This document shows positions 36,695-50,897 of a DNA stretch of 64,000 bases, piece by piece. This DNA comes from Clostridia bacterium. GTDB lineage: Bacteria > Bacillota > Clostridia > Oscillospirales > Acutalibacteraceae. Under the pieces are notes generated by a model. That model saw only the letters and a program-made list of their open reading frames with translations. It was not told the DNA's origin and made no database searches. Where the stretch lies: positions 1 through 64,000 of the forward strand of contig JAFSFY010000040.1 in NCBI GenBank assembly GCA_017434985.1, written 5' to 3'. Positions within the stretch are counted from its first letter, which is position 1, and each line of letters opens with the position of its first letter. Both the position numbers and the translations under genes were made by a program.

Positions 36695-38926
36695 ATGGAT
36701 CACAAAAATTGGAACGGATTTGCCGCCGGTGTTTGGCGGGACGAAATCAACGTTCGTGATTTTATTCAAGCGAACTACGCACCGTACAGCGGTGACGCAG
36801 CCTTTTTGGCAGGCCCCACCGCGCGCACCGAAGCGTTGATGAAAAAACTGCAAAACTTGTTTGCGCTGGAACGGCAATTCGGCGGCGTGTTGGATATCGA
36901 CACCGCCACCGTGTCGTCACTGACAAGTTTTTCGCCCGGTTATATCGATAAAGACAACGAAATTATCGTGGGTATGCAAACCAATCGCCCGCTGAAACGC
37001 AGCGTCAACCCGTTTGGCGGTATGCGCATGGTGCGTCAAGCGTGTGAAGCATACGGATATACCCTCAGCCCCAAGGTGGAAGAGGAATTTCGTTTCCGCA
37101 CCACCCACAACGACGGCGTGTTCCGCGCGTACACCGCCGAAATGCGTGCCGCCCGCAAATGTCACATCATCACGGGACTCCCCGATGCGTACGGTCGCGG
37201 CCGTATCATCGGTGACTACCGCCGTGTGGCACTGTACGGTATCGACCGCTTGATCGAAGAAAAGAAAAAGGACAAGGCGGCCCTTGCCCAAAATGCGTTT
37301 GACACCGACAATATTCGTCTGGACGAGGAATTGTATCAACAAATCACGTTCCTCGGCTATATGAAAGAAATGGCCGCCATGTACGGCTTCGATATCAGCG
37401 AACCCGCAAAGAACGCGCGCGAAGCCATTCAGTGGACCTATTTTGGGTATTTGGCCGCTATCAAAGAGCAAAACGGCGCGGCGATGTCGCTCGGCCGTGT
37501 GAGCACCTTCTTTGACATCTACATTCAACGTGATATTCAAAACGGCGTACTCACCGAAGAAACCGCACAGGAGTTGCTGGACGATTTCGTGATGAAACTG
37601 CGTATCGCGCGGCATCTGCGCACCCCCGAATACAACGAATTGTTCGGCGGCGACCCGATGTGGATCACCGAAGCGGTGGGCGGCATGGGCGAAGACGGAC
37701 GCACGCTGGTCACCAAAACCAGTTTCCGTATGCTCAACACCTTGTACACGCTCGGTTCCTCTCCCGAACCGAACCTCACGGTGTTGTGGTCCACCGCGTT
37801 GCCCGAAAACTTCAAGCAATTCTGCGCCAAAGTGTCGGCTGACACCGACTCCATTCAATACGAAAATGACGACGTGATGCGTCCTCTCTACGGCGACGAT
37901 TATGCCATCGCCTGCTGTGTGTCCGCCATGAAAGTGGGCAAACAGATGCAATTCTTCGGCGCGCGGTGCAACCTTGCCAAGTTGTTGCTCATCGCCATCA
38001 ACGGCGGTTATGACACCACCAGTGAAATGCGCATCGGGCCGCAAATGCCGGTGATGGAAGGCGACACGCTCGACTTTGACGAAGTGGTGGCGCGCCTGGG
38101 CGTGTACATTCCGTGGCTGAGCCGTTTGTACGTCAACACGATGAACATCATCCACTATATGCACGACAAATATGCGTATGAAAAGAGCCAGATGGCACTG
38201 CACGACACCAACGTGGATCGCTTTATGGCATTCGGTATTGCGGGACTTTCGGTGATTGCCGACTCGCTGAGCGCCATCAAATACGCGCAGGTGTTCCCCA
38301 TCAAGGACGAAAACGGCTACATCGTTGACTTTAACACGGTAGGCGATTTCCCGAAATTCGGCAATGACGATGATCGCGTCGACTTGATTGCCAAAGATAT
38401 GACCCACCGCATGATCACCGAACTGCGTAAGACCCCCACCTACCGCGGGGCGATTCACACGCTTTCGGTGCTCACCATCACCTCCAACGTGATGTACGGC
38501 AAAAACACGGGCGCCACCCCCGACGGACGCGAAGCGTTTGCCCCGTTCGCTCCCGGTGCCAACCCGATGCACAACCGCGAAGAAAACGGTGCACTGGCCT
38601 CCTTGAACTCGGTGGCCAAGATCAGTTACGACGATTGCCGCGACGGCATTTCCAACACCTTCTCCATCACGCCCGAAGCGCTCGGTCGTACCGAAGAGGA
38701 ACGCATTGACAACCTGGTGCACATTTTGGATGGCTATTTCGGGAAAAAGGCACACCATATCAACGTGAACGTTTTAAACCGCGAAACGCTGATGAAGGCT
38801 TACGAAAACCCCGAAGAGTATCCCAACCTGACCATTCGCGTGTCGGGGTATGCGGTCAACTTTAATAAGTTGTCGCGCGAACAACAACGCGAAGTCATCA
38901 GCCGCACCTTCCACGAAACGATATGA
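36695..38926 (+). CDS. pflB: Formate C-acetyltransferase (pyruvate formate-lyase)
   Basis: Glycyl-radical enzyme that splits pyruvate with CoA into acetyl-CoA and formate, the C1 and acetyl-CoA source in anaerobes. The 743-residue protein has the catalytic pair Cys407-Cys408 in AIACCVSAM and the radical-bearing Gly718 in TIRVSGYAV near the C-terminus. FGGMRM and [25 protein letters not shown] are also present. SD AAGGAGG lies 7 nt before the ATG. The gene overlaps pflA by ATGA and sits behind a ZTP riboswitch, which links formate supply to purine/folate status. Confidence 0.96.
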
Positions 38927-39627
38927 CGACATCATCTGTTTACGGCCGTGTGCATTCCCTGCAAAGTATGGGGACGCTGGACGGCCCCGGGGTGCGGTTC
39001 GTGGTGTTTTTGCAAGGATGTCCCCTGCGTTGTCACTGTTGCCACAACCCCGACACGTGGGCGATCGACGGCGGCACGCCGTACACGGCAGAGGAACTGA
39101 CCAAACGCGCGCTCCGCTTTCGCGAGTATTTCGGTGACGAGGGCGGTGTGACGGTATCGGGTGGCGAGCCGTTGTTGCAACCCGCTTTTGTGCGCGAGTT
39201 TTTCACCCGCTGTCACGAGCACGGGCTGAACACCTGCCTCGACACGTCGGGCTGCCTATTGAACGACGACGTGTTGGACGTGACCGACCGCATGTTGTTG
39301 GATATCAAGTACACGAACGACGCCGACTATCGCGCCTACGTGGGATGCGAAATGAACAAGCCGCTTGCCTTTTTAGAGCGGTTGACCGAAAAGGGTATTC
39401 CCACCACCTTGCGACAGGTGATCATCCCCACCGTGAACGACACGGACGACAACGTGTTGGTATTAAAACGGATTGCCGAGGCACACCCGAACGTGGATAA
39501 GATCGAATTGCTCCCCTTTCGCAAACTGTGTCAAGTGAAGTACGACAATATGGGACTGACCTTCCCGTTTGGACGATTGCCCGAGCCGACAAAAGAACAC
39601 ATGGCACATTTGCAAAGCCTGTTATAA
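38923..39627 (+). CDS. pflA: Pyruvate formate-lyase activating enzyme
   Basis: Radical SAM enzyme that installs the glycyl radical on PflB. The 234-residue protein has the 4Fe-4S motif CX3CX2C as Cys33, Cys37 and Cys40 in [27 protein letters not shown] (SAM-binding GGE) and [18 protein letters not shown] follow. Its start overlaps pflB by 4 nt, so both are coupled, and a bidirectional terminator follows. Confidence 0.95.
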
Positions 39628-39667: not shown

Positions 39668-40639
39668 TTAGTAACCGACTTTCTCCCAGCACTCGAACGG
39701 AGCGGCAAGCTCGTCGCTGATGTAGACCTGCGTTTTCTTGGTTTGGAGCATGGAGCTGGGCACCAAGGGGGTAACGGGGCCGTGGGTGACCAAGCGGGAG
39801 GTCATCCGTTGCCAGGACGAGAAGGTGCCGTTGGTCATCAAGGCATGCACTTCGATGCGTTCTTTGGCGCGCATCACGTCGATGGGGCCGATGGTCGCGG
39901 CTTTGGGCGGCACGTTGGCGATGTCGCCGGATTGGCCGAAGCAGCCGTGCAACGAGTTTTGCATAATGGTCATCGGGTGCAAGGTGACGATCTTGGCGGG
40001 TTGGTTCAGCCATTCTTCAATGTCGCCGCTGCCCATAAATTCCGGAATCGGGTCGACAAACGCCACGTGACCCGCCCAACCGGGAGAGGTGGAGATGATG
40101 TCGGCGCCGCCTTCGGAAATGTCGTTGATGATCTTGGAATAGTCGTTGATGTTTTTGTTGGTGGGATAGTGCACGTTTTCCATCGGCATACGCAATTTGG
40201 GGTCAATTTGATACACGAGATATTTGAGCATCGAATGCACAAAACCCGCCTCGTAGGTTTCGGGGGCGATGTTGCCGTCTTGATCCGCCCACTCGTCTTC
40301 CGCGAAAATGTGCACCTTGGAGCAATCCACTTGGAAGTAGTTGATGAGTTGGGCGAGCGGGATATAGGTGTCCGGCTCGGGGTTGCCGAGGATCATGGTG
40401 AAGGTGCGGCCCGCTTCGGACGCGGCCTTCAAACGTTCAAACAACGTCGCGATGAGCACCGGGTGGGGGTTCATCATCACTTTGACGTTGAATTCCGGAT
40501 GCCACCACGGCTCGCGGACTTCCAATTCTTTGCCGCTGAGTTTGCGCACACGTTCGCAGACCTCACGGTCTTTGAAAGGCACAAAATCCGCAGGATCAAA
40601 GCTGAACTTGGTTGCGGGATCGAACACGATGTCTTTCAT
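39668..40639 (-). CDS. Glucosamine-6-phosphate deaminase/isomerase-like protein
   Basis: Predicted sugar-phosphate isomerase/deaminase of the NagB/6-phosphogluconolactonase fold. The 323-residue protein is longer than typical NagB (about 240-270). It shows MILGNPEPDTYIPLAQLI, HIFAEDEWADQDG (position of the NagB catalytic Asp region) and STSPGWAGHVAFVDP, matching the NagB G-x-x-GH-x-AF motif. ATG at 40639 follows AAAGGAGA by 7 nt. It lies 23 nt after the NagA-like gene in one operon, so it probably handles the deacetylated amino-sugar phosphate. The exact substrate may differ from glucosamine-6-phosphate. Confidence 0.75.
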   Translation of the reverse strand: MKDIVFDPATKFSFDPADFVPFKDREVCERVRKLSGKELEVREPWWHPEFNVKVMMNPHPVLIATLFERLKAASEAGRTFTMILGNPEPDTYIPLAQLINYFQVDCSKVHIFAEDEWADQDGNIAPETYEAGFVHSMLKYLVYQIDPKLRMPMENVHYPTNKNINDYSKIINDISEGGADIISTSPGWAGHVAFVDPIPEFMGSGDIEEWLNQPAKIVTLHPMTIMQNSLHGCFGQSGDIANVPPKAATIGPIDVMRAKERIEVHALMTNGTFSSWQRMTSRLVTHGPVTPLVPSSMLQTKKTQVYISDELAAPFECWEKVGY

Positions 40640-40662
40640 AACTGTTTCTCCTTTGTCTATGT

Positions 40663-41805
40663 TCAAATTTTTTGAATACCGTTCATCAACACGCCGTGGA
40701 CATTCATATCGTGATCCACGAAAATGAGGTCGGCGCGTTTGCCCACCGCAATCTCACCGCGGTCAAGCAGGTTGGTGGCACGCGAGGGGTTGTACGACGC
40801 AAAGCGGAACACGTCGCAAATCGAAGCACCCGTGTGTTTCATCATATTGCGGCACGCCACGTTGAGGGTGAGTTTGGAGCCCGAGATCTCGCCCATAAAG
40901 TCGAAGTTGATATCGGTGACACCTTCGTATCCGGGCGGGGTAGGGCCGTAATCCACGCAGGCATCCGAAATAAGGATCACGCGGTCATCACCTTTGATGC
41001 GGCGCACCAAGCGAAGCATATACGGGTCAACGTGAATACCGCGGCTGTCGCAAATAAGCTCGGCATAGATCTCGCGGTTATAACTGACCGTTTCGTCCAC
41101 ACACACACCGCGACATTCGGGGTATTTGGGAAGCGAACCGGTTGCGTTGGTGTGATGCGTACCGATGCGCAAGCCGTACGGCATCAACGCTTCGGTTTCG
41201 TGCGGGGCGGCCTCGCTGTGACCCACGGCAAAAATGGCGTTCGGGTTTTTGGCCTTGACGTATTGCACGAATTCCAAAATGTTTTCGCGCTCGGGCGCCA
41301 ATGCCCACACTTTCACCACGTCGATACCCGCCTCGACGATCGGCTCAAAATCGGCTTTGTTGACCACACCGTGCCACGGATTTTGTTCGCGGTTGGCACC
41401 AAACTTGGGATTCATATACGGGCCTTCCATATACAACCCTTGCAAGTTTTCGCAAGCGGGATCTTTCATCGCTTCTTTCAAGAAGTTTATCTCGTTAACA
41501 AAACCTTGCCGATCCAACGAAAAATACACCGCGCTGTTCAGGGTGGTGGTACCGTTTTTGAGATGCACTTCACACGCGGCTTGCGGATTTTCCGCAAAGT
41601 TATGCATACCGCCCGCATGTACGTGGATATCGATCAAACCGGGACCCACAAACAACCCCTTGGCATCAATCGTTTCGCAGTCGGGCAGATCGCCAAACAA
41701 ACGGCGTTCGCCAAACTTCACGATCTTGCCGTCTTCGATCAGCAAAACGGCGTCGGGAATGTAATGATCTTTCATTACCAACACGGCGTTGATAATCATT
41801 TTCAT
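40663..41805 (-). CDS. N-acetylglucosamine-6-phosphate deacetylase-like protein
   Basis: Predicted metal-dependent amidohydrolase that removes acetyl from an N-acetyl sugar phosphate. The 380-residue protein has the metal motif GLIDIHVHAGG near residue 60, LQGLYMEGPYMNP (NagA E-G-P motif), FAVGHSEA, RIGTHHTNATG and the catalytic Asp in VILISDACVD. ATG at 41805 has GGAGG 10 nt upstream. It is first in a two-gene operon with the NagB-like enzyme, with a promoter at 41842-41870 and a palindrome at 41890-41907. Confidence 0.82.
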   Translation of the reverse strand: MKMIINAVLVMKDHYIPDAVLLIEDGKIVKFGERRLFGDLPDCETIDAKGLFVGPGLIDIHVHAGGMHNFAENPQAACEVHLKNGTTTLNSAVYFSLDRQGFVNEINFLKEAMKDPACENLQGLYMEGPYMNPKFGANREQNPWHGVVNKADFEPIVEAGIDVVKVWALAPERENILEFVQYVKAKNPNAIFAVGHSEAAPHETEALMPYGLRIGTHHTNATGSLPKYPECRGVCVDETVSYNREIYAELICDSRGIHVDPYMLRLVRRIKGDDRVILISDACVDYGPTPPGYEGVTDINFDFMGEISGSKLTLNVACRNMMKHTGASICDVFRFASYNPSRATNLLDRGEIAVGKRADLIFVDHDMNVHGVLMNGIQKI

Positions 41806-41841
41806 TGTTACATCGCCTCCACGGCAAAATTTAACAGTTAC

Positions 41842-41870
41842 ATTGTATCCCTTTCCCCTCAAAAAGTCAA
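41842..41870 (-). promoter_or_regulatory. Promoter of nagA-like operon
   Basis: On the minus strand TTGACT (41870-41865), a 17-bp spacer and TACAAT (41847-41842). Confidence 0.65.
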
Positions 41871-41889
41871 TAATTTTACAAGATATATT

Positions 41890-41907
41890 TTTGTTTGTAC
41901 AAACAAA
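41890..41907. promoter_or_regulatory. Operator-like 18-bp palindrome
   Basis: TTTGTTTGTACAAACAAA is a perfect palindrome about 20 bp upstream of the -35 of the NagA-like operon. Its core TTTGTACAAA is closely matched by sites at 49491 and 50976 (TTTGTGCAAA). Confidence 0.55.
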
Positions 41908-41913
41908 TACAAT

Positions 41914-41950
41914 AAAAGCGACCCTAACCGTTGGTTAAGGTCGCTTTTTT
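41914..41950 (-). terminator. Terminator of hydrolase/dehydrogenase unit 1
   Basis: AAAAGCGACC and TAACC pair with GGTTA and GGTCGCTTTTTT around GTT. It follows the minus-strand gene ending at 42008. Confidence 0.75.
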
Positions 41951-42007
41951 CACGAGATGGTCTTGCCGTTCGGCAACCCGCGTGACAGATGGCGGTCATC
42001 GATCCTC

Positions 42008-43357
42008 TTAAAAAATCTCGTGGCCGAGTTCCAACACACGTTTCACCATACGGTCGCCCGTATCGGGTTCAAAACGAGCCGAGTAATAGGTAGACTCGTA
42101 CACGTGGGGGTGGAACATATGCGCCGTGGGGAAATAGGACACCGTGTTGTAGAAATGACACATCGACACGGTGAAGTTTTTGTCACTGGGCGAACCGTCG
42201 CAAATGTTCTCCGCAAACTCGGAGAATTGCTCACCCACCAACCCGTAGAACAAGCAATCGCCAAACTTGATGGCTTGTACGGGCAGATCGAGTTCCTTTC
42301 GTTTATCCTCCTCGTAGGTTTTGAGGACGATATCCCCCGCCGCGTATTTTTGGCTGTCACAGTACGGGTCGGTAATCTTGTCGATACGGTTTCCCTTCTC
42401 GTCGTAGGTCGGTTCGGGCGCGGGGCCTGCCAACACGGCCTTTACACTGTCCACAAAGCCGTCGGGGATTTTGCGTTTTTCCACCGTAACGCTCCCCATT
42501 TGGTAAGCAATGGCCGTGTTGTCCATCTTCTTTGCCGTGGGAACCATGTTTACGTATCTCTCAAACAACGTGCCGACAATTTTTTCGTAGGTTGCGTGGA
42601 AGAGATCTTCTTTGTGCATAAAGTCCACGTTGTTGATATCGCCGTTAAAGCCCGACAAAAAGACCGACACGAACCCGCTGCCGTACACGTCTTTTAAGCG
42701 GAGCGCCAACGTGCCCGAATAGTCGCTGCTGTATTCCTCGCCCCCCACGTTGTCGTGGTGCAGGGCAAAAGACGAAATACCGCCGATGGGGTTGCCGTTT
42801 TTATCACGGAAAAAGAGAATGGAGAACGGGCGACGAGGTTCACGCGCGGTGCGCACCACGTCGTCCACGTAGTCAAAGGGGTTGGTGCGGTATTCACCGT
42901 TTTTAAGCAAACAGTTACGGCAAAAAGAAATACCGGTTACCTCTTCGCAAACATAGTACACATCGGCCTCTCGCAACCGCTGATACGCAAGCACGACCGC
43001 ATCCGCGGCACGCAACGACACGGTTTGAATGGCACTTGCCACCCTGTCGGCATACGTTTCGTTTTTCGTGTAATCCACGGGAACGCTCGTATGGGAATGG
43101 GTTGCCGCCACCAAAATGCTTGCGGGGTCGATCGGTGTACGCGCCGACACTTCACGGCGCACCACGTCGGCCAAACCTTCGGGAAGACCAAGCGCATCCA
43201 CGCACACCATTGCCGTGTATACGCCCTCGTTTTCTATCACCACCGCTTTGGCAAACAAATTTTGCTTAACACCGCAAGCAATGCGCTCAAAGAAATAGCC
43301 CGGAATGGGCAACCCCAACGGCGGGGTGATCTCCGCTTCGTAAAAACCGACTTTCAT
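42008..43357 (-). CDS. Ceramidase-like metal-dependent hydrolase (copy 1)
   Basis: Function unknown; resembles the neutral/alkaline ceramidase N-terminal domain fold. The 449-residue protein begins MKVGFYEAEITPPLGLPIPGYF and has the probable metal-binding motifs VAATHSHTSVP (about residue 90), SSFALHHDNVG and SGFNGDIN. Late come the conserved FGLVGEQFSEFAENI-like region and VSYFPTAHMFHPHVYESTYYS. There is no signal peptide, so it is cytoplasmic, unlike secreted ceramidases; a small amide or ester made from a sugar is a more likely substrate. ATG at 43357 follows AGAAGG. It is 14 nt downstream of a Gfo/Idh gene, and the pair is duplicated at 46982-49398. Confidence 0.7.
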   Translation of the reverse strand: MKVGFYEAEITPPLGLPIPGYFFERIACGVKQNLFAKAVVIENEGVYTAMVCVDALGLPEGLADVVRREVSARTPIDPASILVAATHSHTSVPVDYTKNETYADRVASAIQTVSLRAADAVVLAYQRLREADVYYVCEEVTGISFCRNCLLKNGEYRTNPFDYVDDVVRTAREPRRPFSILFFRDKNGNPIGGISSFALHHDNVGGEEYSSDYSGTLALRLKDVYGSGFVSVFLSGFNGDINNVDFMHKEDLFHATYEKIVGTLFERYVNMVPTAKKMDNTAIAYQMGSVTVEKRKIPDGFVDSVKAVLAGPAPEPTYDEKGNRIDKITDPYCDSQKYAAGDIVLKTYEEDKRKELDLPVQAIKFGDCLFYGLVGEQFSEFAENICDGSPSDKNFTVSMCHFYNTVSYFPTAHMFHPHVYESTYYSARFEPDTGDRMVKRVLELGHEIF

Positions 43358-43371
43358 TTGCCCTTCTCCCA

Positions 43372-44424
43372 TCAATCAAAGTTGTAGTCCGGTACCACTT
43401 TTTCGCCCGTTTTAAAGGATTCCACAATTGCCAAACACACCGCAACGGTGGCGGCACCTTCTTCGCCGGGGGTGGGAACGGGTTGGTCGTTCAACAAACT
43501 GTTGCAAAAATCTTCCACTTCACCGCCGAAGTTGTGGCTGTCCACCTCAACCGGGACCTTAATTTCCAGTTCGCGTTGCTTGTAACGGTCAAAAATCTCG
43601 TCTTCACTAAATTGGCCACGGAACAACGAGAAGGTCGCGTCCACGTCGTTGAAAATCAACGTACCTTTGGTACCGTACGCCACCGAACGCATCGTATAAT
43701 TGCGTTTGCAACCGGTGGAGGTCATCACCTTGCCGATAACACCGTTCGGGAGTTTCATCACCGCCATTGTACAGTCGTGGATCGGCCAATCGGTCAGGCA
43801 TTTGTTGTTCGCATAGGCAAACACTTCGGTCGGGTTTCCCGCCATCATGCGAATCAGGTCCACCGCATGGCAACCGCCGCCGATAACCGGTTCACGCTCG
43901 GGCGTTTTGCGCCACGGCGCACCGTTGCCGCTGATTTCGGAATAATCGTGTGCGTATTCGGATTCGATCATAAAGAGGTCACCGATAAGACCGCTTTTGA
44001 TGATGCGCTCCACCTCAACGTACATCGGGCTGTAACGTCCAATCTGACCCACCATCAACTGTTTGCCGCATTCTCTTGCCACACGAATCATTTCTTTGCA
44101 TTCGTCCAGGTCAAGCGCCATCGGTTTTTCGCACAAGACGTGTTTACCTGCGCGCAAAGCGGCAATCGTTGCCTCTTTGTGCAGTTGGTCGGGAAGCGGA
44201 ATGGTCACCGCATCAATATCATCACGGGCCAACAAGTCGTGATAGTCCGTATACACACTGTCTTCGGGAATGTCAAATTGTTTGGCGCGAAGAAGCGCAC
44301 TCTCGCGGTTGATATCGCAAATGGCCACCGCTTCGGCGTTGGATACTTTGGCAATACCGTTCAAGTGATATTCCGAAAAATCGCCACCGCCAATAACGCC
44401 CAGTCGAATTACCTTCTTTTTCAT
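43372..44424 (-). CDS. Gfo/Idh/MocA family oxidoreductase (copy 1)
   Basis: Predicted NAD(P)-dependent dehydrogenase of a sugar, inositol or related polyol. The 350-residue protein has a Rossmann start RLGVIGGGDFSEYHLNGIAK, the family motif HVLCEKPMALDLDECKEMI near residue 97 and GGGCHAVDLIRMMAGNP with the likely catalytic Asp/His. ATG at 44424 has GGAGG 8 nt upstream. It leads a two-gene operon with the ceramidase-like gene and is transcribed divergently from a LysR gene through overlapping promoters. Confidence 0.85.
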   Translation of the reverse strand: MKKKVIRLGVIGGGDFSEYHLNGIAKVSNAEAVAICDINRESALLRAKQFDIPEDSVYTDYHDLLARDDIDAVTIPLPDQLHKEATIAALRAGKHVLCEKPMALDLDECKEMIRVARECGKQLMVGQIGRYSPMYVEVERIIKSGLIGDLFMIESEYAHDYSEISGNGAPWRKTPEREPVIGGGCHAVDLIRMMAGNPTEVFAYANNKCLTDWPIHDCTMAVMKLPNGVIGKVMTSTGCKRNYTMRSVAYGTKGTLIFNDVDATFSLFRGQFSEDEIFDRYKQRELEIKVPVEVDSHNFGGEVEDFCNSLLNDQPVPTPGEEGAATVAVCLAIVESFKTGEKVVPDYNFD

Positions 44425-44453
44425 TGTCAATTCCTCCTGCGTATTCTTTTGTC

Positions 44454-44485
44454 TTGATAATATCACGCGGCCGTGTTATAATCAA
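44454..44485. promoter_or_regulatory. Overlapping divergent promoters
   Basis: Plus strand: TTGATA (44454-44459), 17 bp, TATAAT (44477-44482) for the LysR gene. Minus strand: TTGATT (44485-44480), 17 bp, TATTAT (44462-44457) for the dehydrogenase. The two promoters occupy almost the same bases, so they cannot be used at once. ATAACAGTTAT at 44500-44510 is a small palindrome that could be the LysR site. Confidence 0.65.
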
Positions 44486-44534
44486 ATACATATACAAGCA
44501 TAACAGTTATAACAAAACATCTATGGAGGCTCGT

Positions 44535-45506
44535 ATGTTTCAATACGCCGACTATATCTACGCCGTGTACAAAGAAAAAAGTTTTACGGCGGCGGCCAAA
44601 AAATTATACATTTCGCAACCGTCGCTCAGTGCGGCGGTGAAACGGGCAGAGGAGAAATTGGGGTTTCTCATTTTTGACCGCTCTTCCTCCCCGCCGGTAC
44701 TGACCGACGCGGGGCACGTGTACATCAACGCCGTGGAAGAAATGAACAAGGTCAAACGCAATCTGAAAAACTACGTGCAAAACATTCATTCACTCACCTA
44801 TGGCGACGTGGTGCTCAGCGGCAACAGTTTCATCTCGACTTTTGTGTTGCCTCCCCTGATGAAGGCCTTTGACGAACAATATCCCTCCATTCGTTTGTTT
44901 TCGGAGGAAGGGCATTCGGCACAGTTGTATGACAAACTGCTGAACGAAGAAAGCGACGTGTTGGTGGGCAACGAGTTGGACGTGGACGAGTTTGTGGCGT
45001 GGCCGCTTTGCGAAGAACATCTGTTGTTGGCGGTACCGAAAAGCGATGCGTTATATACGCAGTTTGGCGAGCACGCCTTGTCACGCGAGGATGTGTTGGC
45101 GGACAAGCATCTGCTTAGCAACTTGTCCTTGTCGTCCTACGACGGCGATACGTTAATTCATCTGGAACGTGGGCCGATGCGTGGGCAAAGCTCCCGCTTG
45201 TGTGCAGAACTGTCCCTTTCCTTTCGCAAGGTCATCACAACCGACCAATTGTTGACCGCCGTCGCCTTGGCAGAGGCAGGGTTGGGCGCCACCTTTGTGA
45301 CCGACACGCTGGTAAAATCAGCCCCGCCGTATCCGCATTTGGCATTTTTTGCGTTGCCCCCCTCTGCCAAACAGACGCTGTATATTGCCCACAAGAAAAA
45401 GGCATATCTGAGTCCCGCGGTGGCGGAGTTCATCCGTTTTGCGCGGGAATTCTACGGCCACGATATTGACGAACACGGCCTCAACCCTTATAATAAAGAA
45501 AATTGA
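44535..45506 (+). CDS. LysR family transcriptional regulator
   Basis: Predicted regulator of the surrounding catabolic genes. The 323-residue protein has an N-terminal winged helix-turn-helix (YAVYKEKSFTAAAKKLYISQPSLSAAVKRAEEKLGFLIFDR) and a C-terminal inducer-binding domain (GDVVLSGNSFISTFVLPPLMKAFDEQYPSI...). ATG at 44535 follows GGAGG by 5 nt. Its promoter overlaps that of the divergent dehydrogenase gene, the usual LysR arrangement. It is followed after 18 nt by the FGGY kinase gene. The inducer is unknown. Confidence 0.88.
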   Translation: MFQYADYIYAVYKEKSFTAAAKKLYISQPSLSAAVKRAEEKLGFLIFDRSSSPPVLTDAGHVYINAVEEMNKVKRNLKNYVQNIHSLTYGDVVLSGNSFISTFVLPPLMKAFDEQYPSIRLFSEEGHSAQLYDKLLNEESDVLVGNELDVDEFVAWPLCEEHLLLAVPKSDALYTQFGEHALSREDVLADKHLLSNLSLSSYDGDTLIHLERGPMRGQSSRLCAELSLSFRKVITTDQLLTAVALAEAGLGATFVTDTLVKSAPPYPHLAFFALPPSAKQTLYIAHKKKAYLSPAVAEFIRFAREFYGHDIDEHGLNPYNKEN

Positions 45507-45524
45507 CTCACGAAAGGCAACGTT

Positions 45525-46943
45525 ATGAAACGATTTTTAGGTTTGGATATCGGCACCACGTCGCTGAAAGCGGCGGTGTTTGACGAACACGGTACCCGTT
45601 TGGGGCTGACGCACAAGGAATACACGTTGGATACCGACCCCGTGACGGGGTTTATTGAATTTGACCCCGAGCAATACGTGGTGATGTGTAAAGATGCCAT
45701 TGCACGCTTGCGCGCGCAGTGCGGCGAGATTACGGCATTGTCGGTGGACACGCAAGGCGAAACCCTCATTTTGGCCGACGAAAACGGTACGCCCCTCTGC
45801 CCCGCTATCGTATGGCTGGACAACCGCGCCACCGCCGAAGCGGAGGAGATTGACAAAGCGTTCGGCCGTCAGCGTGTATACGAGGTGACGGGGCAACCCG
45901 AAATTACCGCCACCTGGCCCGCCGCCAAGTTGTTGTGGGTGAAGAAACATCGCCCCGACGTGTTTGCCAAAACAAAACGGATTTTTTTGCTGGAAGATTG
46001 GATTCTCTACCGTCTTTCGGGCGAATTTGTCACCGAACCGACCATTCAATCCTCCACCATTTACTTTGACGTTACCCGCAAAACGTGGTGGCCGGAGATG
46101 CTCGCTTTTATCGGCATCACCGCCGATCAGTTGCCGCGCCTTGAAAAAAGCGCCACGGTCATCGGTGAATATGAGGGTATCGTCGTGACGACGGGGGCGC
46201 TTGACCAAATTGCGGGCACCATCGGCGTCGGCGTGACCGACGAAAGCCGCATCAGCGAAATGACCGGTACCATTATGGCCATTTGCGTGATGAGCGACAC
46301 GTTACCGCCGTTTAACCCCGACAGCATTGTGCCGTGTCACCTGCACGCCGTCGACGGTAAGTATTGCTTGCTGTTGTGGTCGTCCACCGCAGGCATGGCA
46401 CTGAAATGGTTCCGCGAACAGTTTGCCCCCGACCTCTCGTTCGCCGAATTGGACGAGCTTGCCGCAAAGGTCACGGCGGGGTGCGACGGACTCACGATGC
46501 TCCCCCATTTTTGCGGGTCCACGATGCCGCGCTACAACCCTGCCGCCACCGCGTCGTTTACGGGGCTGACTCTCTCCCACACCAAAGGGCATTTTGCACG
46601 CGCCATCATGGAGGCGGTCGCGTTTACCTTACGTCAGGATCTCGAGTATACAAACGCGTCGCGCGATTGCGAAGTGCGGATCACGGGCGGCGGTGCGAGC
46701 GGCAAACTGTGGCCGCAAATCAAAGCCGACGTGACGGGGCGCACCCTCACCACCGTGTGCGAGAGCGAGACTGCCTGCATCGGCTCGGCAATTTTGGCGA
46801 TGGTGGGCGTCGGCGCGTACGAGTCGATCCACCAAGCGGTGGAGGCCACCGTAAAACTGAAAGGCACCTTTGCCCCGAACGGCGCCGATTACGAAGCCGC
46901 CTATCGGCGGTATTGCGAGACCGAAAATACGCTCATCGGATAA
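45525..46943 (+). CDS. FGGY family carbohydrate kinase (xylulokinase-like)
   Basis: Predicted ATP-dependent kinase of a pentulose, hexulose or polyol. The 472-residue protein begins with the phosphate-binding RFLGLDIGTTSLKAAVFD and has VDTQGETLILADENGTPL and PAIVWLDNRA. The catalytic-Asp segment TGALDQIAGTIGVGV and the C-terminal adenosine motif ITGGGASGKLWPQIKADVTGR follow. It lies downstream of the LysR gene in the same direction and ends at a terminator. Together with the Gfo/Idh dehydrogenases it suggests oxidation followed by phosphorylation of an unusual sugar. Confidence 0.87.
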   Translation: MKRFLGLDIGTTSLKAAVFDEHGTRLGLTHKEYTLDTDPVTGFIEFDPEQYVVMCKDAIARLRAQCGEITALSVDTQGETLILADENGTPLCPAIVWLDNRATAEAEEIDKAFGRQRVYEVTGQPEITATWPAAKLLWVKKHRPDVFAKTKRIFLLEDWILYRLSGEFVTEPTIQSSTIYFDVTRKTWWPEMLAFIGITADQLPRLEKSATVIGEYEGIVVTTGALDQIAGTIGVGVTDESRISEMTGTIMAICVMSDTLPPFNPDSIVPCHLHAVDGKYCLLLWSSTAGMALKWFREQFAPDLSFAELDELAAKVTAGCDGLTMLPHFCGSTMPRYNPAATASFTGLTLSHTKGHFARAIMEAVAFTLRQDLEYTNASRDCEVRITGGGASGKLWPQIKADVTGRTLTTVCESETACIGSAILAMVGVGAYESIHQAVEATVKLKGTFAPNGADYEAAYRRYCETENTLIG

Positions 46944-46945
46944 AA

Positions 46946-46977
46946 AAAAAGAAGTGCTCAGCAGAGCACTTCTTTTT
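46946..46977. terminator. Bidirectional terminator
   Basis: GAAGTGCTC (46951-46959) pairs with GAGCACTTC (46964-46972), flanked by A and T runs, between the kinase and the converging hydrolase copy 2. Confidence 0.85.
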
Positions 46978-46981
46978 GTTT

Positions 46982-48337
46982 TTAGTAGATCTCGTGGCCG
47001 AGTTCCAGCACGCGTTTCACCATACGGTCGCCCGTATCGGGTTCGAAACGGGCGCTGTAATACGTAGACTCGTACACGTGGGGGTGGAACATATGCGCCG
47101 TGGGGAAATAACTCACGGAGTTGTAGAAATGGCACATCGACACCGTGAAGTTTTTGTCGCTGGGAGAACCGTCGCAAATGTTCTCGGCAAATTCGGAGAA
47201 CTGTTCGCCCACCAAACCGTAGAACATACAGTCACCGAATTTGATGGCTTGTACGGGCAGATCAATTTCGGTACGTTTGTCCTCATCGTAGGTTTTGAGA
47301 ACGATCTCACCGGAAGCGTATTTTTGGTTATCGCAATACGGATCGGTGATTTTATCCACGCGGTTGCCCTGGTCGTCATACGTCGGTTCGGGTTCGGGCC
47401 CTTTGAGCACTTCTTTGACGCTTTCCACAAAGCCGTCGGGAATCTTACGTTTCTCCACGGTAGTGGTGCCCATCTTGTAGGCGATGGCCGTGTTGTCCAT
47501 TTTTTCGGCAGTGGAAGCCATCTCCAAAAACGCGTCGGTCAAGGTATCCACCACTTGATGCGACGGGACGTGACGCGGATCTTCTTTGTTCATAAAATCT
47601 ATACGGTTGATATCGCCGTTAAAGCCGGAGAAGAACACCGACACGAAGTCTTGACCGTAGGTATCTTTCAACCGCAAACCCATACCGCCCGAATAGTCAC
47701 TGTCATATTCGCTGGTACCCACGTTATCGTGATGCAAGGCAAAAGACGAAATACTGCCAATCGGGTTGCCGTTTTTATCGCGGAAGAACAGAATCGTGAA
47801 CGGACGGCGCGGTTCACGCGCGGTACGCACCACATCTTCCACGTAATCGAAGGGGTTGGTACGCACTTCACCGTTTTTGAGCACACAGTTACGGCAGAAA
47901 GAAACGCCTTTCACTTCCCTGTTGGCGTAAAACACGTCGGCCTCTTGCAAACGCTGATAAGCAAGCACGACCGCATCCGCCGCACGTTTCGAGGTCGTGT
48001 CGATGATGGTTTGGACACGTTGTTTGGTCGCCTCGTCAAACTTACGGCTCACCTCGGTCGGAATAGACGTGTGCGAGTGGGTAGCCGTAATCAAGATGCT
48101 TTCGGGATCAATCGGCGTGCGCTCCGCTACGCTTTGGCGAACCACCACGTCGAGCCCTTCGGGAATGCCAAGCGCATCCACGCACACCATCGCGGTGTAA
48201 ACGCCGTTGTCTTCGAGAACGACCGCTTTGGCAAACAGTTTGCGCGAAACGCCGCAGGCGATCCGTTCAAAGAAATAGCCGGGAATCGGCGCACCGAGCG
48301 GCGGGGTAATTTCCGCTTCGTAAAAACCAACTTTCAT
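46982..48337 (-). CDS. Ceramidase-like metal-dependent hydrolase (copy 2)
   Basis: Close paralogue of the gene at 42008-43357, with the same motifs in 451 residues: MKVGFYEAEITPPLGAPIPGYFFERIACG, ITATHSHTSIP, SSFALHHDNVG, SGFNGDINRIDF and the nearly identical C-terminus (CHFYNSVSYFPTAHMFHPHVYESTYYSARFEPDTGDRMVKRVLELGHEI- type). The close match over the full length indicates a recent duplication of the dehydrogenase/hydrolase pair. It starts 14 nt after the Gfo/Idh copy 2 stop. Substrate unknown. Confidence 0.7.
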   Translation of the reverse strand: MKVGFYEAEITPPLGAPIPGYFFERIACGVSRKLFAKAVVLEDNGVYTAMVCVDALGIPEGLDVVVRQSVAERTPIDPESILITATHSHTSIPTEVSRKFDEATKQRVQTIIDTTSKRAADAVVLAYQRLQEADVFYANREVKGVSFCRNCVLKNGEVRTNPFDYVEDVVRTAREPRRPFTILFFRDKNGNPIGSISSFALHHDNVGTSEYDSDYSGGMGLRLKDTYGQDFVSVFFSGFNGDINRIDFMNKEDPRHVPSHQVVDTLTDAFLEMASTAEKMDNTAIAYKMGTTTVEKRKIPDGFVESVKEVLKGPEPEPTYDDQGNRVDKITDPYCDNQKYASGEIVLKTYDEDKRTEIDLPVQAIKFGDCMFYGLVGEQFSEFAENICDGSPSDKNFTVSMCHFYNSVSYFPTAHMFHPHVYESTYYSARFEPDTGDRMVKRVLELGHEIY

Positions 48338-48351
48338 GATTCTTCCCTCTT

Positions 48352-49398
48352 TTAGAAGTTATAGTCAGGTTTCACTTTTTCGCCCGTTTTGAAGGATTCC
48401 ACGATCGCGAGGCAGACCGCCACAGTGGACGCGCCTTCCACGCCGGTGGTCGGCACAGGTTCGTTTTCCAAAATGCAACGACAGAAATCTTGCACTTCGC
48501 CACCGAAGTTGTGGTCGTTCAGCACCACGGGAAGTTTTACTTCCAACTCGCGTTGTTTGTAGCCGTCGAAATCCGGATCGTCGGTGAAGTGGCCTTTAAA
48601 CAAGGAGATGGTGGGCGTTTTGTTATCAAAAATGATGGTGCCTTTGGTGCCGTACGCCACCGTGCGCATGGTATAGTTACGTTTGCAACCGGTGGAGGTC
48701 ATCACCTTACCGATAACACCGTTCGGGAGTTTCATCACCGCCATGGTGCAGTCGTGGATGGGCCACGTGGTGAGGCATTTGTTGTTGGCATAGCCAAACA
48801 CTTCTTCGGGGTTACCCGCGATCATACGGATGAGGTCCACCGCGTGGCAGCCGCCGCCGATGATCGGCTCACGCTCGGGAGTGATGCGCCAAGAAGTGCC
48901 GTTACCGCCGATCTCGGAATAGTCGTGCGCGTATTCGGATTCGATCATAAAGAGTTCACCGATCACGCCATCGTCTATCATCTTTTTCGCTTGTACAAAG
49001 GCGGGCGTGTAGCGGCCAAGTTGACCGACCATCAATTGTTTGCCGGTTTCTTTGGCTACTTTGATCATTTCTTTGCATTCGTCCAGATCGAGCGCCATCG
49101 GCTTTTCGCACAACACGTGTTTGCCCGCGCGAAGAGCCGCCACGGTGGCTTCTTTGTGGAATTGGTCAGGAAGCGGAATGGTCACCGCGTCGATATCGTC
49201 ACGGGCAAGCAAATCGTGGTAATCGGTATACACGCTATCCTCGGGGATACCGTACATTTTCGCTTTTTCGAGCGCACGCTCACGGTCGAGGTCCGCCATC
49301 GCCACCGCCACCGCATTGGGTGAATTTTCAATACCATTGAGGTGATAGGCAGAGAAGTCGCCGCCGCCGATCACGCCGAGTCGAATTTGTTTCTTCAT
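48352..49398 (-). CDS. Gfo/Idh/MocA family oxidoreductase (copy 2)
   Basis: Paralogue of the gene at 43372-44424. The 348-residue protein has the same Rossmann start RLGVIGGGDFSAYHLNGIEN, HVLCEKPMALDLDECKEMIK and GGGCHAVDLIRMIAGNPEEV. Differences concentrate around residues 150-160 and 275-310, so the substrates may differ slightly. SD AGGAGG lies about 8 nt before the ATG. The promoter is at 49443-49470, and a TTTTGTGCAAAA palindrome lies upstream of it. Confidence 0.85.
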   Translation of the reverse strand: MKKQIRLGVIGGGDFSAYHLNGIENSPNAVAVAMADLDRERALEKAKMYGIPEDSVYTDYHDLLARDDIDAVTIPLPDQFHKEATVAALRAGKHVLCEKPMALDLDECKEMIKVAKETGKQLMVGQLGRYTPAFVQAKKMIDDGVIGELFMIESEYAHDYSEIGGNGTSWRITPEREPIIGGGCHAVDLIRMIAGNPEEVFGYANNKCLTTWPIHDCTMAVMKLPNGVIGKVMTSTGCKRNYTMRTVAYGTKGTIIFDNKTPTISLFKGHFTDDPDFDGYKQRELEVKLPVVLNDHNFGGEVQDFCRCILENEPVPTTGVEGASTVAVCLAIVESFKTGEKVKPDYNF

Positions 49399-49442
49399 AG
49401 TAATATCCTCCTAAAATTTTATTGACGTTATCCATCAATTTC

Positions 49443-49470
49443 ATTATACAAAATTGACCCATAAAGTCAA
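49443..49470 (-). promoter_or_regulatory. Promoter of unit 2 with TTGAC/GTCAA repeat
   Basis: On the minus strand TTGACT (49470-49465), a 16-bp spacer and TATAAT (49448-49443). TTGAC and GTCAA form an inverted repeat with 7-bp spacing over the -35. Confidence 0.65.
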
Positions 49471-49490
49471 CCTTTTTTAAAAATATTTAA

Positions 49491-49502
49491 TTTTGTGCAA
49501 AA
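49491..49502. promoter_or_regulatory. Operator-like palindrome TTTTGTGCAAAA
   Basis: A 12-bp near-perfect palindrome about 20 bp upstream of the -35 of the second dehydrogenase/hydrolase unit. The same 12 bases and flanking AATATTTA occur at 50976-50987. Confidence 0.5.
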
Positions 49503-49518
49503 ATGAGAATAATGCAAA

Positions 49519-49546
49519 AACGGCGGCAGTTTGCACTGCCGCCGTT
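49519..49546 (-). terminator. Terminator of hydrolase copy 3
   Basis: AACGGCGGCAG pairs with CTGCCGCCGTT; on the minus strand TTTGC follows. It ends the gene that stops at 49551. Confidence 0.75.
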
Positions 49547-49550
49547 AAAA

Positions 49551-50897
49551 TCAAAACAGGCTCTTGGCCATCTCGGTGAGTTTCGCTACCATATTATCGC
49601 CCGTTTCGGGTTCAAAACCGGCGCTGTAATAGGCCGATTCGTACACGTACGGCAAGAAGCGTTCGGGGGTGGGAATGTAGGATACGGGGTAGCCGATGTG
49701 TGAGAGTTGCATCATCAGCGTTTTGTCGGTAGGAGCCAATTGGCGCAACTGCTTCGCATAATCGCAGAACGGCTCACCGGGGGTGGAATACAACGCAAAC
49801 TCACCGATACGAATCACCAACAGCGGGATGTCCTTTTCGCGTTCGTCGTTGTCGTACCATTCGAGCAACGTGCGACCCGCGGCGTATTTTTGATTGTCGC
49901 TGTACGGCTCGCTCACCTTGTCCACGCGATTACCGTCTTCGTCGTAGGTCACTTCGGGCTCGGGACCCGCCATCACGACCTTGACACTGTCGAGAAATTC
50001 TTTGCCGGGGTCACGCTTTGTCGCGCGCAGCGTGTCCCACTTGAAAGAAACGGTATCATCGGTCAACTTCTCGGCAGTGCTTGCCGCTTCGAGATAGCCC
50101 CGGAACAAGCGCTCGCCGATCTGCTCGGTGGTGAGGGTGACGGGCTTTTTCAGCAAGAAATTGGCGTGGTTGATATCGCCCGAGAAGCCCGACACGAACA
50201 CCGACACAAAGTCGGGGCCGTACTGTTCTTTTAACAGACGTGCCAACACACCGGAATAGTCACTGCTGTATTCACTGGTACACACGGTATCGTGATGGCA
50301 CGCAAAGGAGACGAGCGTGCCAATGGGATTGTCTTGTTTATCTTTGAAGAGCAGGAGCGGCAACGTGGGATCGGGTTCGGCGGCGGTGCGCACCACCTGA
50401 TCGAGAAAATCGTACGGATTGGTGCGGATCTGGCCGTCTTTGAGCACGCAGTTGCGCACACAGGCAATGCCGTTCACCGCGGTGGCGGCGTAAAACGCAT
50501 CGGCTTCCTGCAACCGTTGATAGGCAAGGACGATCGCGTCGGCGGCGCGACGCACGATAATCTTCATCAACGCCGCCACTTCCTCGACGTTGTCATCCGC
50601 GTATTGGTCGGGGCGCACGGGCATGGACGTGTGCGCGTGGGTGGCACCCATCGCAATGCTGTAGGGGTCGATCGGGATGCGTTTTGCCACGTTTTCACGC
50701 ACGCGCTCGGAGAAGTTAAACGGCAACGCCAACGCATCCACACCGAGCACGGCGGCATAGGCACCGCCGCTTTCCACGACCATCGCCTTCACGTACAAAC
50801 GTTGCTTCACCGCCACGGCGTTGCGTTGGAAAAAGTAGCCGGGGATACCCGTGCCGAGCGGCGGGGTGACCTCTGCTTCATAAAATCCGACTTTCAT
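49551..50897 (-). CDS. Ceramidase-like metal-dependent hydrolase (copy 3)
   Basis: More distant paralogue of the two hydrolases at 42008 and 46982. The 448-residue protein has MKVGFYEAEVTPPLGTGIPGYFFQRNAVAVK, GATHAHTSMP, SFACHHDTVCTSEYSSDYSG, SGFSGDINHANF and VSYIPTPERFLPYVYESAYYSAGFEPETGDNM. The metal-binding His motifs are kept while other parts differ, so it probably acts on a related compound. It is not paired with a dehydrogenase. ATG at 50897 follows GAGGAG. The promoter TTGATT-16-TATAAT and a TTTTGTGCAAAA palindrome (50976) lie upstream. Confidence 0.68.
   Translation of the reverse strand: MKVGFYEAEVTPPLGTGIPGYFFQRNAVAVKQRLYVKAMVVESGGAYAAVLGVDALALPFNFSERVRENVAKRIPIDPYSIAMGATHAHTSMPVRPDQYADDNVEEVAALMKIIVRRAADAIVLAYQRLQEADAFYAATAVNGIACVRNCVLKDGQIRTNPYDFLDQVVRTAAEPDPTLPLLLFKDKQDNPIGTLVSFACHHDTVCTSEYSSDYSGVLARLLKEQYGPDFVSVFVSGFSGDINHANFLLKKPVTLTTEQIGERLFRGYLEAASTAEKLTDDTVSFKWDTLRATKRDPGKEFLDSVKVVMAGPEPEVTYDEDGNRVDKVSEPYSDNQKYAAGRTLLEWYDNDEREKDIPLLVIRIGEFALYSTPGEPFCDYAKQLRQLAPTDKTLMMQLSHIGYPVSYIPTPERFLPYVYESAYYSAGFEPETGDNMVAKLTEMAKSLF

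Follow-up and report, generated by a model that had tools for sequence, protein, structure and literature searches.

The described systems closest to the locus considered here are canonical N-acetylglucosamine (GlcNAc) catabolism (TIGR00221, TIGR00502), the FGGY xylulokinase/autoinducer-2 kinase family (TIGR01312, PRK10939), the neutral ceramidases (PF04734; Pseudomonas aeruginosa 2zws/2zxc, human 4wgk) and the Gfo dehydrogenases IolG, DgpA and UDP-GlcNAc 3-dehydrogenase. Relatives of all of these are encoded in a nine-gene block at 39.7–50.9 kb of contig JAFSFY010000040.1, whose first 64,000 nucleotides (the window) were analysed here and which belongs to a gut-type Clostridia genome (assembly of 1.6 Mb, 90% complete). 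We tentatively regard the block, with a little less than even confidence, as an accessory catabolic island that joins a dehydrogenase–hydrolase module (Gfo–Hyd) to a NagA–NagB–FGGY module for the cytoplasmic breakdown of a modified N-acyl amino sugar. Its gene content, folds and active-site residues, and the recurrence of each module in other genomes, are direct observations. A preliminary description of the window had proposed a catabolic set with an amino-sugar theme, and the data support this.

The block has two enzyme superfamilies in common with canonical GlcNAc catabolism, encoded by adjacent genes and with most catalytic residues retained, whereas their scores fall far below the equivalog cut-offs. 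The divergent NagA-like amidohydrolase (40663..41805, minus strand; 380 amino acids) matches Amidohydro_1 and reaches 154 bits against TIGR00221 (cut-off 225.65), and a profile alignment shows that it retains the residues that NagA uses for metal binding and catalysis (HxH, Glu, two His, Asp). For residue roles in NagA and NagB we rely on what we take to be established for the E. coli enzymes. Downstream by 23 nt, and probably in the same operon, lies the gene for a divergent protein of the NagB-like sugar isomerase/deaminase family (39668..40639, minus strand; 323 amino acids). This protein has no Pfam match and scores 33–39 bits against nagB models (35 bits for TIGR00502, cut-off 237), but its AlphaFold2 model has the NagB fold (TMq 0.55–0.64 to NagB entries, which fill the 26 top rows). 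Residues D115 and H191 correspond to NagB D72 and H143, while E148 is replaced by Asp196 and D141 by Ala, Thr or Pro, such that the full catalytic set (D72, D141, H143, E148) is not found in the NagB-like protein. The phosphate loop GSTP is likewise replaced, by GNPEP, PNPCP or PNQWP across the 18-member family. The block differs further from the canonical system in that an FGGY kinase replaces the aminosugar kinase, and in that orthodox genes (one NagB at 261 bits, two NagA at 324 and 254 bits) exist elsewhere in the genome, on which basis the NagA-like and NagB-like proteins can be considered a divergent extra pair with another job. These orthodox loci (L183–L189, on contigs C43, C15 and C16) contain the NagB gene and, separately, a canonical NagA gene; a second, weaker NagB-like gene adjoins a canonical NagA gene and a frame that by eye resembles lactate racemase.

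The FGGY-family sugar kinase (45525..46943, plus strand) shares both FGGY domains, over its full length, with the xylulokinase/autoinducer-2 kinases, and its closest models are those for xylulokinase; the score against XylB (TIGR01312) is 302.2 bits and falls below the cut-off of 380.25. It differs from those kinases in its neighbours, which are NagA/NagB or FucI-like and Hyd genes. Orthologues are present in 24 genomes of the order besides its own, and in seven genomes (G051, G162, G210, G249, G257, G287 and G315; coordinates compared by hand) an orthologue lies about 8 kb or less from a Hyd-family match. A sulfoquinovose route, prompted by an FGGY gene together with a FucI/SftI-like gene in locus L149, was rejected: SftI scored 48.6 against 700 bits, and the route offers no place for NagA or NagB.

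Recurrence of this module was assessed in 43 loci retrieved through the NagB-like protein alone, with neighbours counted within 8 kb and Hyd identified by profile search; 36 Gfo-centred loci (382 kb) served as controls. A NagA-like gene was found in 27/43 loci, mostly directly adjacent to NagB, with Hyd in 15, FGGY in 14, a TIM-like isomerase in seven, YjbQ in six and a SIS isomerase in five, compared with NagA in 2/36 controls and none for FGGY, TIM-like, YjbQ or SIS. All four of FGGY, NagA, NagB and Hyd occur together in eight of the 43. These counts are descriptive, because the loci are mutually related and the contigs short, but they support the view that FGGY and a Hyd paralogue accompany NagA–NagB far beyond chance. 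Two loci (L156, L157) have the gene order FGGY, NagB, NagA, Hyd, and other clear examples are L209, L210, L204, L172 and L052. Beside the NagB-like and FGGY genes, several clusters (L151:14484-15822, L170, L172:12250-12939, L204, L211) carry YjbQ (UPF0047) and an archaeal-type TIM-like isomerase, sometimes adding a fructose-6-phosphate aldolase. Another (L096:131-13758) combines a SIS isomerase, FGGY, a BadF-type kinase, GH16, two Hyd, DeoR, two NagA-like genes and a NagB-like gene with a gene that is MurQ-like by eye (SIS/GKRP domains by Pfam); it possibly hints at an ether-linked amino sugar, of the muramic-acid type or another.

The second module pairs a dehydrogenase with a hydrolase, Hyd, encoded in the window by hydA (42008..43357), hydB (46982..48337) and hydC (49551..50897), all on the minus strand. 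Matches to Pfam Ceramidase_alk are weak, with hydB (35.1) passing the gathering score of 32.1 and hydC (29.9) and hydA (24.7) falling below it. Structure prediction, which the preliminary description had suggested as a check, gave an AlphaFold2 model of hydB (built from 59 sequences; predicted local distance difference test score, pLDDT, 95) with the neutral-ceramidase fold throughout, and a clear structural match to three neutral-ceramidase entries only (VIA Z 36–38, next row 4.2; TMq 0.70). In a sequence-profile alignment, hydB H87, H202, E378 and Y410 are the counterparts of PaCD H97, H204, E411 and Y448, and H89, R149 and Y422 those of H99, R160 and Y460; from ceramidase structures we take the first four to be zinc ligands and the other three to be catalytic. 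All seven are invariant or nearly so across the 59 sequences. The ceramidase-type His motifs noted in the preliminary description are real, and Hyd has an intact zinc site. It lacks the GDVSPN serine, however, the motif reading G-D/N-I-N-H with the SPN segment absent from the alignment. A proposed loss of a Hyd catalytic residue was softened on these grounds, as the seven structure-based residues are kept and this serine alone is absent.

Hyd also differs from neutral ceramidases in length (450 amino acids versus about 650), in sequence (about 17% identity) and in having no lipid context. Inspection of the N-termini by eye (MKVGFYEAE.TPPLG) showed no signal peptide, in agreement with the cytoplasmic location proposed earlier, and neither a secretion signal nor the C-terminal Ig-like domain was found in Hyd, which begins MKVGFYEAEITPPLG and whose alignment stops near PaCD residue 487. 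Given the ceramidase fold and the retained metal-site residues, Hyd is probably an active zinc hydrolase that cleaves a carbonyl bond of some small molecule in the cytoplasm, with ceramidase identity a candidate only. Elsewhere, Hyd genes form tandem arrays, with four consecutive copies and one Gfo in L057:8609-14061 and six Hyd-like open reading frames within about 12 kb in L164:1356-13142. A second subfamily of about 500 amino acids (L175:7527-11716 and contigs of G051, G162, G210, G249, G257 and G315) accompanies a FucI-like isomerase, an MFS transporter or an FGGY orthologue and probably belongs to a related pathway. At the edge of one Hyd locus (L177:1-2294) a frame resembles, by eye, the start of a Cas9-type protein.

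The partner dehydrogenases gfoA (43372..44424) and its paralogue gfoB (48352..49398), both on the minus strand, have the Rossmann domain, EKP motif and C-terminal domain of IolG, DgpA and UDP-GlcNAc 3-dehydrogenase, but belong to a Gfo/Idh/MocA subfamily with its own signature (EYAHDY / GGGCHAVDL), in which GGGCH stands instead of the usual D-x-G-x-H. They score 139 and 144 bits against IolG (TIGR04380; cut-off 355). The preliminary description had called the two gfo–hyd pairs near-copies with an identical 14-nt gap. The pairs, their coordinates and the gap length (exactly 14 nt in both) hold, but the gap sequences differ (TGGGAGAAGGGCAA and AAGAGGGAAGAATC) and "near-copies" is too strong: amino acid identity is 78.1% between gfoA and gfoB and 78.3% between hydA and hydB, and DNA identity is 76%, with synonymous sites near saturation. 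Since synonymous divergence (dS about 1.1–1.3) far exceeds non-synonymous divergence (dN 0.15–0.16), and does so alike in gfo and hyd, the comparison points to an old duplication, in which the pair was probably copied as a unit, with purifying selection on both copies. The third, diverged hydrolase reported earlier, hydC, is 50% identical to both hydA and hydB.

A single-sequence scan of genome contigs retrieved no Hyd loci (0), whereas a family-alignment search did. Among the loci retrieved through Hyd alone, about 15, ranging from Clostridia to Lentisphaeria, have the signature Gfo subfamily directly next to Hyd; the cultured relative Diplocloster modestus (L080) carries hyd-gfo. The profile of this subfamily separates members bimodally (scores of at least 350 or at most 174), although it was trained on some of the same members. 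In the Hyd tree, hydA, hydB and hydC, the last as sister to the other two, form a clade, with support, that also takes in two L050 Hyds (gfo-hyd-hyd) and next those of L044/L051 (gfo-hyd). In three loci (L056, L057 and L064) Gfo–Hyd adjoins a NagA–ROK gene or NagA homologue.

The pathway that we infer from these data, including its reactions, kinase-last order, link between modules, regulation and substrate, would begin with an NAD(P)-dependent redox step by Gfo at a ring carbon of a modified amino sugar and with hydrolysis by Hyd of a carbonyl bond, whether amide, ester or lactone, in a small soluble substrate. Together these steps would unmask the amino sugar in the cytoplasm. The NagA-like enzyme would next remove the N-acetyl group, the NagB-like enzyme would produce a ketose from the amino sugar by deamination and isomerisation, and FGGY would phosphorylate this ketose last, for entry into glycolysis, with the LysR protein as the probable regulator of the island. 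FGGY kinases use ketoses and polyols as substrates, and the kinase is placed last for this reason and because the NagB-like protein has lost the GSTP phosphate loop. The SIS, TIM-like and fructose-6-phosphate-aldolase-like genes of related clusters suggest a ketose phosphate as product, and no fructose-6-phosphate aldolase was found in the 90%-complete genome itself. No pathway with such a gene set was found in the open-access literature (subscription papers lay outside the scope of the search), consistent with the preliminary description.

Several observations weigh against this scheme. No sugar transporter was recognised adjoining the island in a search that was not exhaustive. At the phosphate-Arg position of NagA (REPG), an Arg of the NagA-like protein (ECRG) aligns beyond a four-residue insertion; the profile alignment puts it in register, and an alternative in which this Arg was lost was dropped. 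A candidate phosphate-contacting Arg seems to be kept, which would fit a phosphorylated substrate and a kinase-first order. On such a canonical order, which we consider somewhat unlikely, a kinase encoded elsewhere would yield an N-acetylhexosamine 6-phosphate isomer, the NagA-like and NagB-like enzymes would, as in the catabolism of GlcNAc or GalNAc, act on sugars that carry a phosphate, and FGGY would serve a different sugar. The BadF-type kinase and MurQ-like genes of L096 would suit this arrangement, but the island has no ROK, BadF or PfkB kinase, the GSTP loop and D141 are lost from the NagB-like protein, and FGGY lies beside the NagB-like gene in 14 of the 43 loci.

Other contrary evidence concerns the link between the modules. 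The Hyds found beside NagA–NagB (L045/L052, L047/L065, L079, L109) branch outside the clade of the window Hyds, which is Gfo-linked, so that the window combines modules that in most cases occur separately. When loci were found through Gfo alone, Hyd was adjacent in 3/36 and within 3 kb in two more, with none nearby in the remaining 31. Strict Gfo–Hyd dependence is therefore rejected; the Gfo subfamily has other uses too, and its main role may lie elsewhere than with Hyd. A protein of about 280 amino acids related to AraC regulators lies near the signature subfamily in 17 of these 36 loci (L220–L255). The complete nine-gene set was found in no examined genome other than its own, and the link between the modules accordingly rests on one genome. 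Of the co-occurrence foreseen in the preliminary description, then, the NagA–NagB–FGGY(–Hyd) and Gfo–Hyd modules recur but the full set does not, and one fixed nine-gene pathway is not supported, given this, the Gfo-linked clade of the window Hyds and the 31 Gfo loci without Hyd. An ancient single operon of all nine genes was rejected, there being no second example and the Hyd clades differing.

These same data favour two independent neighbouring pathways with no shared substrate, an amino-sugar route through NagA–NagB–FGGY and a Gfo–Hyd route for another compound such as a glycoside, inositol or lactone, as does the placement of FGGY and LysR on the opposite strand. This account nonetheless seems doubtful to us: Hyd-family genes adjoin Gfo, NagA/NagB and FGGY in different genomes, and the distribution of close homologues among the relatives examined is what one acquired block would give. 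Among sampled family members and eight further genomes from the genus, none has a close homologue of the three Hyds (best 27% identity), and the NagB-like protein, which is 84–90% identical to proteins from other families of the same order and class, has no match at E ≤ 1e-40 among sampled members of its own family. The block is thus not a lineage trait, and horizontal acquisition fits. An oxidoreductive deglycosylation, in which Gfo would form a 3-keto sugar and Hyd would cleave or hydrate the keto intermediate like the metal-dependent eliminases that degrade puerarin-type C- and O-glycosides, is improbable, since no PF01261 gene adjoins the window Gfo–Hyd genes and the ceramidase-fold Hyd is unrelated to those TIM-barrel eliminases, even though DgpA is the best PDB match of gfoB and L056, L057 and L064 hold Hyd, two to three Gfo, PF01261 TIM barrels and NagA/ROK, a content resembled by an operon of an oxidoreductase and two sugar-phosphate-isomerase genes (PMC10628242).

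Read towards lower coordinates, the minus strand of the block carries hydC, gfoB–hydB, gfoA–hydA, NagA-like and NagB-like; in the interval separating the two gfo–hyd pairs, the plus strand encodes the LysR-type regulator (44523..45506, alternative start 44535; divergent from gfoA–hydA) and FGGY. The LysR, FGGY, NagA-like and NagB-like genes reported around the pairs are all present, and every coordinate corresponds to an open frame with an ATG start. The block is flanked by an activating-enzyme gene beside a pyruvate formate-lyase-like gene (36695-39627) and by a diaminopimelate dehydrogenase gene (51054), the neighbourhood of which is not syntenic across five genus mates compared for an empty site.

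The island is real and its parts are recurrent; it is a variant of sugar catabolism made from known superfamilies, with its chemistry inferred. It is also conceivable, though rather unlikely, that it represents an amino-sugar pathway, widespread but undescribed, where the NagA-like and NagB-like enzymes act before FGGY, and cytoplasmic ceramidase-fold zinc hydrolases without the GDVSPN serine act upstream on a Gfo-oxidised substrate. With deacetylation and deamination preceding phosphorylation, amino sugars unable to carry a 6-phosphate, such as 6-deoxy amino sugars, would become usable. The Hyd family, which keeps its metal site intact while lacking the GDVSPN serine, is a common one among Clostridia of the herbivore gut, where several copies are often present; no assigned substrate was found for it. 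The NagA–NagB–FGGY and Gfo-signature–Hyd modules provide a short list of partner enzymes, and the substrate should therefore be findable with a few enzymes on an amino-sugar panel.

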